From positions 1-61,474 of the forward strand of contig NZ_JAEL01000020.1 of NCBI RefSeq assembly GCF_000518885.1: a DNA stretch of 61,474 nucleotides, read 5' to 3'. The position numbers and the translations under genes are program-made. The notes under the pieces are model-generated. The model was not told where the DNA came from and did not search any database. It saw only the letters and a program-made list of their open reading frames with translations. This DNA comes from Bacillus sp. J33 (lineage in GTDB: Bacteria; Bacillota; Bacilli; Bacillales; Cytobacillaceae). Of the stretch, positions 52,451 through 55,350 are shown piece by piece; positions within the stretch are counted from its first letter, which is position 1, and every line of letters starts with the position of its first letter.

Positions 52451-52734
52451 GTTTTCAAAATTGTCCTCTCTTTTCTCCCTTTAGTTTTTAACTTCTTTAA
52501 CCAATAAACCATGTGTTTATGGATTTTATAACAAATTGGCAGATACGCAATAATCATAATCGCCAACCACCCCATTATCTTGATTCTCCCTTCTTTATTT
52601 CTCTACTTATATTCGATTTTTACATATTAATTTCCTTTTCCGACTGTCAATTAGGAATTTTCTGCATTAGCAAGAGGCAGAAAAAATAGGTTGAAACCCC
52701 TGCCCTCTAAATATATGATAAAGGTATACCACGT

Positions 52735-52900
52735 AAAGGAGTTGATATTTTTGAGTAGCTACGGTTCCTTAGAACCCGACCCTGAGAATTTGCAGGAGGA
52801 AGCGGGACATATCTGTTTGTTGAGCGGGAAGTACTATTGCTTAAATATCAACAATGCTAGAGGTATTTTTGCTTCCTCTTTATAACGAGGAGGTTTTTTT
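52735..52900 (+). promoter_or_regulatory. corA leader: long-range stem, leader ORF and terminator overlapping the corA ribosome site
   Basis: GTTGATATTT (52741-52750) is perfectly complementary to AAATATCAAC (52843-52852), closing a 102-base domain that includes the hairpin GGTTC-CTTA-GAACC. AGAGG (52859-52863) can pair with CCTCT (52875-52879). Alternatively, the bases 52871-52878 pair with 52887-52894 as an 8-bp terminator followed by seven T and then the corA ATG. The terminator's 3' arm is GAGGAGG, the corA ribosome site. This is a classic attenuator design. A leader ORF with an EPDP motif lies inside. It does not match M-box or yybP-ykoY consensus well, though GAGTAGC occurs. Confidence 0.75.
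52751..52885 (+). CDS. corA leader peptide (44 aa) with EPDP motif
   Basis: A TTG lies 9 bases after AAAGGAG (52735-52741). The peptide begins MSSYGSLEPDPENLQEEAGH and ends GIFASSL; its TAA (52883-52885) falls in the loop of the corA terminator. EPDP and the following acidic residues resemble the start of enterobacterial MgtL (MEPDP...), where acidic-proline stretches destabilise the ribosome when Mg2+ is low. The P1 stem covers the start region, so initiation may depend on RNA folding. Translation of this peptide is not proven. Confidence 0.6.
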   Translation: MSSYGSLEPDPENLQEEAGHICLLSGKYYCLNINNARGIFASSL

Positions 52901-53839
52901 ATGATTGAAATTTTTAAAACAGATCAGGACTGCAAAGTAATAGCAGCTGATGAAATATCAAAAGGATGCTGGATAAACATGGTCAAGCCTTCCCATGAAG
53001 AGGTTGAGCTCGTTTCCGGCAAGCTGAACGTTCCGGTTGACTTTATTAAGAATGCATTGGATGACGATGAATGGTCACGAATTGAAAAAGAAGATGAGAA
53101 TGTTTTTATTATCATCGACTTTCCTTATATGACGCATGATGATGCAGGATTTCCCATTTATGAAACAATTCCGATTGGCATAATTATGACAGATCATTGC
53201 TTTGTAACGGTGTCCTCAAAGGAAACACCGATTTTGGAAGTCTTCAAGAAAAACAAGGTTAAGGGGTTTTTTACAAATAAGAAGACCCGGTTTGCTCTCC
53301 AGATTTTATACATTATTTCTACTTACTACCTTCGCTATCTTAAGCAAATTAATAGAAAAACGAATGAAATTGAGCGCGAACTCCACCAGTCCTTAAAAAA
53401 TAAGGAATTATATGCTTTTCTTGCATTGGAAAAGAGCCTTGTTTATTTTACGACTTCATTGAAGTCGAACAAAGTTGTACTTCAAAAAATACTGCGCATG
53501 AATTACGTGAAAATGTATGAAGAGGATAAGGATCTGCTGGAAGATGTTATGATCGAAAATCAGCAGGCAATCGAAATGGCCGAAACTTATAGTTCAATTT
53601 TAAGCGGAATGATGGATGCCTTCGCCTCAGTCATTTCTAACAATTTAAACATGGTAATGAAATTTCTCACGTCCGTAACCATTATCCTGGCTTTGCCTAC
53701 TATGGTTGCCAGCTTTTACGGAATGAATGTAAACTTGCCTTATCAGAACCATCCTTATGCTTTCATTATGATACTCGTATTAGTTTTCCTATTATCCAGT
53801 TTTACCGCACTCATTTTTTGGAAGAAAAAATTCTTCTAA
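52901..53839 (+). CDS. corA: CorA-family Mg2+ transporter, leader-controlled copy
   Basis: A 312-residue CorA-type channel. A large cytoplasmic N-terminal domain is followed by two C-terminal membrane helices with the selectivity motif YGMNVNLP between them, and a basic tail (FWKKKFF). It takes up Mg2+ (or Co2+/Ni2+) as a pentamer. GAGGAGG lies 7 bases before the ATG and is part of the upstream terminator hairpin, so expression should depend on the leader. It converges with a second, distinct corA gene. Confidence 0.9.
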   Translation: MIEIFKTDQDCKVIAADEISKGCWINMVKPSHEEVELVSGKLNVPVDFIKNALDDDEWSRIEKEDENVFIIIDFPYMTHDDAGFPIYETIPIGIIMTDHCFVTVSSKETPILEVFKKNKVKGFFTNKKTRFALQILYIISTYYLRYLKQINRKTNEIERELHQSLKNKELYAFLALEKSLVYFTTSLKSNKVVLQKILRMNYVKMYEEDKDLLEDVMIENQQAIEMAETYSSILSGMMDAFASVISNNLNMVMKFLTSVTIILALPTMVASFYGMNVNLPYQNHPYAFIMILVLVFLLSSFTALIFWKKKFF

Positions 53840-53894: not shown

Positions 53895-54851
53895 TTAACG
53901 AAACCAGCCTTTCTTTTTGAACCACCAAAACATGCCTGCAGCAATGATAAACATTAAGAACAGTGTTTCATAGTAGCCATATTTCCAAGACAGCTCCGGC
54001 ATGTTTTCGAAGTTCATCCCATAAATGCCGGCAATAAACGTCAGCGGCATAAAAATGGTTGTAATAACTGTCAGCACCTTCATTACACGGTTTGTTTGGT
54101 GGGAGTTGATGGACAAATAGCTATCACGTATATCATTTGTCAATTCCCGGTTTCCATCAATCATCTCTGTAAGCTTTAACAAATGATCATGAATATCTGC
54201 GAAGTACTCATACCTATCTTTTACACCCATAAGCCGATGAGAGTTAATAACACGGTATATAAGATCCCTCATTGGAATCACGGTATACCTAATCTGCAGT
54301 AAATGATGCCTGATATCAAATAATTTCTCCAATAACTCTTCCATGGACTCATCGTTTGGATTATCTTCAATCAGGTTTAATCGATCTTCAAGCTGATAAA
54401 CGATGGGAAAATAATTATCAACAATCTTATCCATAATATGGTACATTGCTAAAAAAGGATCCCATTTATTGATTTTTTTGCTTAGGGCAAAACAATCCCA
54501 TACCTCGTCTATCTCTTCAGAACTTTCATGATGATAAGAAACAATGTAATTCGGTCCTATAAAAAAGTTAATTTCCTGTTTTTCTTCATTTATCTGATTT
54601 AGACTATGGGTCACAAAAAAGCTATAGTCTTCATAGTAATCCAATTTGGGCCGCTGCAGTTTGACTACGCAATCTTCAATAGCCAGGGGATGGAATTGAA
54701 ATGTCTTCTCAAGCTCAGCTGTTTCTTCATCTGAGGGCTGGTCAAAGTCTACCCAATACCATTTGATGTTTGCTGAATCTGTATGCAGATTCTCGAGGGC
54801 AATGTCTTTTATGAATTCATTTTTCTTATTGACTGCTTGTATTCTGATCAT
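53895..54851 (-). CDS. corA: CorA-family Mg2+ transporter, second copy (YfjQ-like)
   Basis: A 318-residue CorA protein. The N-terminal domain has WYWVDFDQPSDEE and HPLAIEDCVVKLQRPKLDYY; the C-terminus carries IYGMNFENMPELSWKYGY between two membrane helices, then FKKKGWF. It matches B. subtilis YfjQ more closely than the leader-controlled copy. AGGGGAG precedes the ATG. No leader ORF, long hairpin or terminator was seen upstream, so it is probably regulated differently from its neighbour. Confidence 0.9.
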   Translation of the reverse strand: MIRIQAVNKKNEFIKDIALENLHTDSANIKWYWVDFDQPSDEETAELEKTFQFHPLAIEDCVVKLQRPKLDYYEDYSFFVTHSLNQINEEKQEINFFIGPNYIVSYHHESSEEIDEVWDCFALSKKINKWDPFLAMYHIMDKIVDNYFPIVYQLEDRLNLIEDNPNDESMEELLEKLFDIRHHLLQIRYTVIPMRDLIYRVINSHRLMGVKDRYEYFADIHDHLLKLTEMIDGNRELTNDIRDSYLSINSHQTNRVMKVLTVITTIFMPLTFIAGIYGMNFENMPELSWKYGYYETLFLMFIIAAGMFWWFKKKGWFR

Positions 54852-55084: not shown

Positions 55085-55350
55085 ATAATAAATCGCTGAC
55101 GAGAAGAGTAAGACAGGAAAACTGTTCCCAAGAGAGCTGGCATTTGGTGAAAGCTGGCGTTCAGTTCCTATCCGAAGATCATCTCCGAGATGCAAAGCTG
55201 AAATCAAGTAAGCTTTGACGGGTTTTCCGCCGTTACAATGGAACGCGTATGATTGTACGTGACTGAGTGCTGCAGTATTTTTTAAAACTGCAGAATTAGG
55301 GTGGTATCGCGAGTACAGACTCGTCCCTTTCATAGGGACGGGTCTTTTTT
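55085..55350 (+). promoter_or_regulatory. T-box leader of brnQ, likely isoleucine-specific
   Basis: Stem I carries AGAGAGCTGG and GGTGAAAGCTGG. The T-box motif reads AGGGTGGTATCGCG (55298-55311), one base off the common form. An 11-bp terminator follows at 55318-55344 with a T run. The specifier region CCGAAGATCATCTCC offers ATC (55178-55180) followed by A, as in ileS-type T boxes. Uncharged tRNA-Ile should therefore switch on brnQ; the codon choice is inferred. Confidence 0.88.

Follow-up and report, generated by a model that had tools for sequence, protein, structure and literature searches.

A leader peptide with an acidic/proline motif and alternative RNA helices precede corA in Bacilli: a probable attenuator that may respond to magnesium

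The corA leader of Bacillus sp. J33 combines a short upstream open reading frame (uORF), whose peptide carries an acidic/proline motif near its N-terminus, with RNA helices of which one hides the corA Shine-Dalgarno (SD) sequence and another competes with it for the same strand. Comparison with related genomes indicates that this arrangement is almost certainly a real and widespread leader-peptide attenuator, and very likely one that answers ribosome trouble at the acidic/proline motif. That Mg2+ is the signal, with low Mg2+ as the ON condition, is our best guess, rated somewhat above even chances; the explanation as a whole, a motif-sensing leader-peptide attenuator through which Mg2+ starvation raises CorA, we consider probable.

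The corA leader of Bacillus sp. J33

The window analyzed here is a stretch of 61,474 nucleotides from Bacillus sp. J33 (contig NZ_JAEL01000020.1). The parts that an initial annotation had read in it, namely the SD, the ORF, EPDP, a 10-bp stem, mutually exclusive hairpins and a stop codon in a loop, are all present in the sequence (Table 1, where the three helices are called P1, AT and T). The gene behind the leader encodes a CorA channel both by its profile match and by the GMN motif (residues G274, M275 and N276, invariant in an alignment of 18 sequences), which we take to be the signature of the CorA family. Taken as a single sequence, the window leader has a fold that exceeds chance only slightly (z -2.03; 7 of 200 shuffles do as well), and the proof therefore rests on comparison; by that comparative evidence the leader is real and above chance. 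At the promoter-like site TATGATAAAGGTATACC is common to three close relatives, and promoter-like sites in the leader region are not above shuffles in the consensus scan (8 found against a mean of 9.4).

Table 1. Parts of the corA leader in the window, with their coordinates.
Feature	Position	Strand	Basis
Promoter-like TTGAAA-17-TATGAT	52691-52719	+	Consensus scan, 10/12 matches
uORF SD, AAAGGAG	52735-52741	+	Read in sequence
P1 5' arm GTTGATATTT, between uORF SD and start codon	52741-52750	+	Pairs with 52843-52852; family tests
uORF, TTG start, 44 aa, MSSYGSLEPDPENLQEEAGHICLLSGKYYCLNINNARGIFASSL	52751-52885	+	Sequence; motif kept as protein in family
EPDP, uORF codons 8-11	52772-52783	+	Sequence; strict motif in 71/91 leaders
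AT 5' arm	52794-52807	+	Helix with 52867-52880; family test
AT 5' core GAGGAAGC, 12 nt past motif, in frame Glu-Glu-Ala	52796-52803	+	Pairs with GCTTCCTC
P1 3' arm AAATATCAAC, inside distal uORF	52843-52852	+	10-bp long-range stem; family tests
AT 3' arm, overlaps T 5' arm; core GCTTCCTC at 52871-52878	52867-52880	+	Helix; family alignment
T hairpin, reuses the same GCTTCCTC and hides corA SD GAGGAGG (52887-52893)	52871-52894	+	96.0% paired cells, 57 sequences
uORF stop TAA in T hairpin loop	52883-52885	+	Sequence
T7 run after T hairpin	52894-52900	+	Sequence
corA, 312 aa, CorA-type divalent-cation channel	52901-53839	+	Pfam CorA PF01544, E 4.3e-59

A second CorA-family gene of the window (53895-54851, minus strand; E 4.3e-82) is convergent with corA and by eye has no such leader. 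The genome holds three CorA-family matches, one of them on contig C141, and two MgtE-family matches; reading by eye upstream of the other two CorA-family genes found no such leader. A T-box leader (RF00230, 129 bits; 55087-55331, plus strand) lies directly upstream of a 472-aa ORF that we presume, from its resemblance, to be a branched-chain amino acid carrier. Known Rfam 15 families were rejected as an identity for the corA leader, since positions 52600-53000 gave only matches far below the gathering cut-off; across nine related loci the sole Rfam 15 match was a tRNA.

Distribution among corA orthologues

Genomes were surveyed in two collections, 41 comprising the window's own genome and relatives and then 397 of the order, of which 105 matched at E <= 1e-60. 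From 116 corA loci read, 111 with at least 50% identity were kept (the partial gene L132 is retained in this denominator; L010 and L133-L136, below 50%, were dropped). An acidic/proline uORF of 25-73 aa, lying at most 200 nt upstream and behind an SD-like site, which was itself one of the search criteria, precedes 91 of the 111 orthologues, and the other 20 were not counted as leader-bearing. With a loose motif an automatic finder recovered 90 of the 111, whereas the reverse complements yielded none and dinucleotide shuffles averaged 0.75 per 111; with a strict motif the figures were 70, 0 and 0.0 per 111. Few genomes of the window's own genus carry this corA: of 24 others, three have it at 95-96% identity and 21 have no close copy, including one that carries a 46% relative without the leader.

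In a scan of named genomes the uORF was found at 41 of the best 80 of 409 relatives, among others in Neobacillus, Peribacillus, Geobacillus, Parageobacillus, Anoxybacillus, Metabacillus, Rossellomorea, Heyndrickxia, Sporolactobacillus, Scopulibacillus and Paenibacillus prosopidis, and also in Listeria grandensis and L. rustica (MNTSIAPSEPDPHQR, MKTSIAPSEPDPHQR), whose further elements were judged by eye; at the Clostridia, Exiguobacterium, Ectobacillus and Fictibacillus loci among these 80 the finder gave none. A survey of the class, in which most of the other match rows came without a locus, allowed 20 corA loci from outside the order to be read; one of them (L143) has the leader, with which the RNA model agrees (E 1.0e-8).

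Measured from the corA start, the end of the uORF ranges between -54 and +82, and at three loci (L005, L068 and L106) the uORF crosses that start and terminates within corA in a different frame (+59, +44 and +82). The stop codon in the hairpin loop was dropped as a candidate part of the mechanism because its position varies among leaders. At L048, which was left out of the leader counts, an SD-preceded uORF starting LSSHQINEPEPEPNSF lies about 350 nt upstream of corA and is possibly a remnant or a rearranged leader.

Two further observations concern loci at the margins of this set. A different leader precedes a more distant CorA clade of about 45-47% identity (L010, L153 and L155), with GGGGGGAAC near an apparent short-ORF start and, by eye, a GTTCCCC stretch about 100-140 nt further downstream; at L153 the short ORF, also by eye, would read MDSSPSCGMNNCNQYCVRRIFRPCGAAACSPYLI. 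The record L162 (JAGGRA010000025.1), titled Pseudomonas sp. ISL-84, holds a corA of 94% identity with the leader, and its title looks wrong; this corA occupies the same position as the one on contig C20 of G012, which is assigned to the genus of the window.

The leader-peptide motif

Among the 91 leaders the strict motif [EKDQN]P[DEG]P is present in 71, as EPEP (24), EPDP (22), DPEP (9), DPDP (7), KPGP (3), KPDP (2), NPGP (2), NPDP (1) and QPDP (1). It starts at codons 6-8 in 62 of the 71 and at codons 5-10 over its full span. In 48 strict-motif representatives the entropy at third positions is 1.65-1.81 of 2 bits at the four motif codons, and all four proline codons are used at both motif prolines; the low entropy at first and second positions is partly built in, as the rows were selected by motif. 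Since the leaders had been collected through a uORF with a loose motif, the motif counts are biased upward.

A count from the start codon, with no alignment on the motif, gives the same picture for 63 dereplicated leaders: D or E at codon 8 in 70%, P at codon 9 in 73%, D or E at codon 10 in 56% and P at codon 11 in 54%. Within codons 2-13 of these leaders [DE]x[DE] occurs in 53, PxP in 53 and at least one of them in 61, whereas within codons 19-30 the counts are 2 and 0. An acidic/proline motif near the N-terminus, the mark of an MgtL-type sensor, is thus found in 61 of 63 leaders from a collection made with a loose motif. The acidic pattern stands alone in 8 of the 63 (e.g., DPDT, DPEG, MDSDAHP), PxP alone in another 8 (e.g., KPGP, NPGP), and two (L084 and L116) have neither. 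One leader that the motif search had missed (L086, G198:C6) was matched by the RNA model (E 1.2e-7), and its uORF has, by eye, an acidic D-L-E. The initial annotation had proposed conservation of the EPDP codons as a check, and the outcome bears it out: the strict motif recurs in most leaders while its synonymous codons vary, a pattern that shows, at the level of sequence, selection on the uORF motif as protein.

The RNA helices P1, AT and T

Pairing was analyzed in 63 leaders dereplicated by shared 8-mers from a set of 130, which includes genomes met twice via the two collections, the Listeria loci L201 and L203 being left out of both sets and of the pairing tests, and in a MAFFT alignment (A2) of 57 leaders, the 63 representatives minus L043, L044, L056, L089, L120 and L121. 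When each arm was scored against its own partner in the 63 leaders, P1 reached 24.41 versus 16.32 (sd 0.52) with permuted partners and AT 22.54 versus 18.48 (sd 0.42), values attained in 0 of 5000 permutations in either case, while three control regions gave z of 1.1-1.9. In the alignment the doubly changed cells of P1 plus AT number 94, compared with 47.5 in shuffles (0/500); 75.2% of cells are paired, compared with 69.2% after shuffling and 44.7-53.9% after sliding; and the covariation score is 0.277, compared with 0.202 after shuffling (0/500) and 0.115-0.199 after sliding. Because sliding by one column leaves 88 doubly changed cells, that count alone is not discriminating. Paired cells amount to 67.3% for P1, 87.9% for AT and 96.0% for T.

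These comparisons establish P1 and AT as conserved helices, and the bases proposed as paired in the initial annotation do change together. T shows no compensatory excess (z 1.6 in the partner test) and in the 57-leader alignment a covariation score the same as shuffles; judged from the alignment it is conserved in sequence rather than covarying, as expected for an SD. The alignment further shows that AT and T share one strand, so that as predicted helices they are mutually exclusive, and that AT starts close behind the motif. Between motif and AT core, 54 of 71 leaders have a spacing of 9 or 12 nt. Taken to the helix end the spacing is more spread out: 41 of 48 leaders fall within 7-13 nt, and 20 of 48 have 9 or 12 nt. 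When the last proline occupies the P-site, the ribosome extends some 15 nt past the first base of that codon, which would place the ribosome edge roughly at the start of AT.

The arms follow the order P1 5', AT 5', P1 3', AT 3' in all 63 dereplicated leaders, an order that the search windows favour. P1 and AT thus cross and would form either a pseudoknot or a pair of mutually exclusive helices. RNAalifold, which cannot represent crossing helices, found T alone in the 57 leaders. The leader presents two features of a leader-peptide attenuator, a conserved uORF selected as protein and exclusive structures of which one hides the downstream SD.

Proposed switch and folding simulations

We propose that the leader senses how well ribosomes pass the acidic/proline stretch early in the short uORF. 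A ribosome that pauses or drops off at the motif would leave the 5' arm of AT uncovered; AT would then form, block T and leave the corA SD free (ON). A ribosome that reads through would cover and open AT and P1, T would re-form and corA would be OFF. In most species translation of corA would then fail to start, and in the window's genus intrinsic termination may contribute as well. P1 would mask the uORF start when no ribosome occupies it. If P1 and AT can coexist as a pseudoknot, P1 would lock the ON state after drop-off; if they cannot, it would force OFF when the uORF is untranslated. Intrinsic destabilization of ribosomes on such sequences at low Mg2+ is known from E. coli. Low cytoplasmic Mg2+ would correspondingly destabilize ribosomes on the motif, and Mg2+ starvation would raise CorA.

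This scheme was compared with simulations in which the RNA was refolded with a ribosome footprint masking each codon in turn, by a program that cannot form P1 and AT together. In the window, accessibility of the corA SD is 0.28-0.59 (0.12 at one codon) with the P-site at codon 1 through motif residue 3, falls to 0.00-0.01 for the 17 codons beyond, is 0.18-0.43 for the next five and reopens, up to 1.0, with the ribosome near the uORF end. The window simulation therefore fits the proposed switch well, apart from the fairly open free RNA, whose SD accessibility of 0.34 is nearly that with a paused ribosome. Averaged over the 63 leaders of the family, accessibility is 0.16-0.24 before the motif, declines to 0.14, 0.13 and 0.10 as the P-site moves through motif residues 1-3, settles at about 0.05 and rises again towards the end of the uORF; the mean for free RNA is 0.086. 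The family medians at residues 1-3 are 0.016, 0.011 and 0.009, already near zero, so that a minority of leaders, the window included, drives the mean; for a family-wide switch the modeling thus lends weak support, less by its medians than by its means. The direction of control, a point that the initial annotation left undecided, is suggested, with a pause as the ON state, by the anatomy and, in the window, by these simulations.

The same element at DUF1003 genes

The element, which the initial annotation described at corA, proves wider in scope. A strict pattern scan of 397 genomes, so narrow that it missed the window itself, gave 30 sites in 29 genomes, 19 of them before corA (assigned by position), the other 11 preceding genes that encode a DUF1003 membrane protein. 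The 11 uORFs before DUF1003 genes, all in the window's order, read M[GS][SN]P.I.ESD..., with ESD kept and no PxP, and the four of these leaders that were scored gave 16.0-24.5 for P1 and 23.5-27 for AT. DUF1003 matches at E <= 1e-15 were found in 14 genomes of the order, 11 of which have the leader; the DUF1003 genes of G175, G356 and G091 and a second copy in G417 have none. In 10 of the 11 genomes the corA orthologue is without the element, and one (G084) has it at both genes.

At E < 1e-6 a covariance model (R1) had 56 matches in 239 genomes, of which 51 were assigned to corA and 5 to DUF1003 genes from their positions; in the window's genome its one match is at corA. In 165 genomes of the class it detected DUF1003 leaders at two loci from outside the window's order; their uORFs are of the proline/acidic type (MGSRCSDVPEPRSRKRG, VGSQCSSWNSKTDPSPRWRG), and their AT arms have changed together (GGGAGTC/GGCTCCC and GGGGGTC/GGCCCCC). 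Six matches besides the main set have E of 8e-4 to 6.1e-3, and three weak matches at class level (L327-L329) have no such uORF by eye.

Because in ten genomes the element is absent from the corA orthologue and present at the DUF1003 gene, DUF1003 may be a Mg2+-homeostasis factor, and an element common to a magnesium channel and to uncharacterized DUF1003 proteins offers a functional lead to the latter in these bacteria. In our literature search no paper with both 'DUF1003' and 'magnesium' was found; two papers mention DUF1003. The broadest reading, a Bacilli-wide Mg2+ sensor that works by drop-off, independent of enteric MgtL and MgtQ and with a crossing, possibly pseudoknotted, helix as its lock, together with a corA/DUF1003 regulon that marks DUF1003 as a new Mg2+-homeostasis factor, seems to us evenly balanced between right and wrong.

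Alternative explanations

The same leader-peptide switch might respond to another signal, such as a shortage of EF-P or ABC-F, low charged tRNA-Pro or general translation stress, with Mg2+ at most indirectly involved. The anatomy names no signal, proline patterns are as frequent as acidic ones (PxP and [DE]x[DE] in 53 of 63 each), and EttA acts on MgtL in E. coli, as described in the sources cited below. However, the regulated gene is a CorA-family channel with GMN, which an ion signal fits better; the commonest motifs alternate as [DE]P[DE]P, the destabilizing type of MgtL, and not as PP, the classic EF-P target; and the 11 DUF1003 leaders of the window's order keep ESD with no PxP, all of which makes a different signal unlikely. 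Classic intrinsic-terminator attenuation of corA transcription, as put forward in the initial annotation, would account for the T7 run that follows the hairpin in the window and three close relatives. It is less likely still, as a U-run follows T in 14 of 91 leaders, these four included, whereas 96.0% of cells across 57 leaders preserve a hairpin whose 3' arm contains the corA SD. In B. subtilis, moreover, transcription and translation are generally regarded as uncoupled, so that termination timed by a ribosome is less to be expected. The constant property is the hairpin that holds the corA SD: of the original claim the leader peptide and RNA switch at corA pass the proposed conservation check, with the motif kept and the paired bases co-changing, and 'terminator' as a general name is given up. 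Hiding of the SD would be the family function of T, with added termination possible in the window's genus.

A protein-independent Mg2+ riboswitch, in which P1, AT and T would bind Mg2+ or fold in a Mg2+-dependent manner with the ORF incidental, could draw on the strong conservation of the helices and on the crossing of AT by P1, which makes a metal-stabilized pseudoknot possible. We consider it improbable, because the motif codons are free at third positions while their residues are kept and because the acidic and proline patterns, frequent at codons 2-13, are nearly absent at codons 19-30. The M-box (ykoK) riboswitch, a ligand-binding RNA without a sensing peptide, exerts cis-control of Mg2+ transporters in Bacilli, and it (RF00380) has no match in the window or its genome. 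Stems that had lost the ORF or the motif, the case said beforehand to point to a riboswitch, were not seen, which is weak evidence in a set collected by uORF and loose motif. Very improbable, finally, is a conserved ORF that encodes a functional small protein, for example a CorA partner, behind helices of ordinary translational coupling: its first dozen residues are conserved in pattern, but its length (25-73 aa), C-terminus and stop position vary freely and its distal codons follow the RNA pairing.

Comparison with known systems

The nearest mechanism is that of Salmonella mgtQ, upstream of mgtB, where acidic codons abort uORF translation and the mgtB SD is freed as a 2:3 stem takes the place of 3:4 (Choi et al., 2021, PMC8092293). 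Both systems place a short uORF with destabilizing acidic codons before a Mg2+ transporter gene, both have alternative stem-loops (1:2 and 3:4 versus 2:3 in mgtQ), and aborted uORF translation frees the transporter SD in mgtQ and would do so here. However, mgtQ has 8 aa, is intergenic and relies on Asp2 and Glu5, whereas the present uORFs have 25-73 aa with a [DE]P[DE]P-type motif starting at codons 5-10, occur in Bacilli before corA and DUF1003 genes and have a long helix that crosses AT. The likeness, drawn from published descriptions, would be one of working and not of membership.

The MgtL leader peptide of mgtA is reportedly the subject of Chadani et al. (2017). In E. coli and Salmonella drop-off at its EPDP raises mgtA, and in E. 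coli EttA acts on it (PMC11282234, PMC11552253). As in MgtL, EPDP stands near the N-terminus, and translation failure there is proposed to favour expression of a Mg2+ transporter; unlike MgtL, which in those descriptions works through Rho-dependent termination and has the motif at codons 2-5, the Bacilli element has an output that hides an SD and a motif that mostly starts at codons 6-8 (62 of 71).

A corA motif has been described in Gamma-proteobacteria and in metagenomic DNA (Stav et al., 2019, PMC6429828; PMC11552253), and corL is described as Rho-linked with a single proline in its conserved N-terminal region (PMC11552253). It shares with the present element a uORF in a structured corA leader and a uORF SD held in a stem (stem A there); in contrast, judged by these descriptions, the element found here belongs to Bacilli. 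A description of the element was not found in Rfam or in the literature searched, which covered the top 10-20 of longer listings and lay mostly outside subscription journals. Mg2+ sensing by ribosome destabilization on an EPDP-type peptide is known from enteric bacteria. If the explanation is true, this physical principle also operates in Gram-positive Bacilli, where it may have arisen convergently and has another RNA layout, and the natural variants EPDP, EPEP, DPDP, DPDT, KPGP, ESD, DSD and DLE provide a set from which to learn which nascent peptides destabilize Gram-positive ribosomes.
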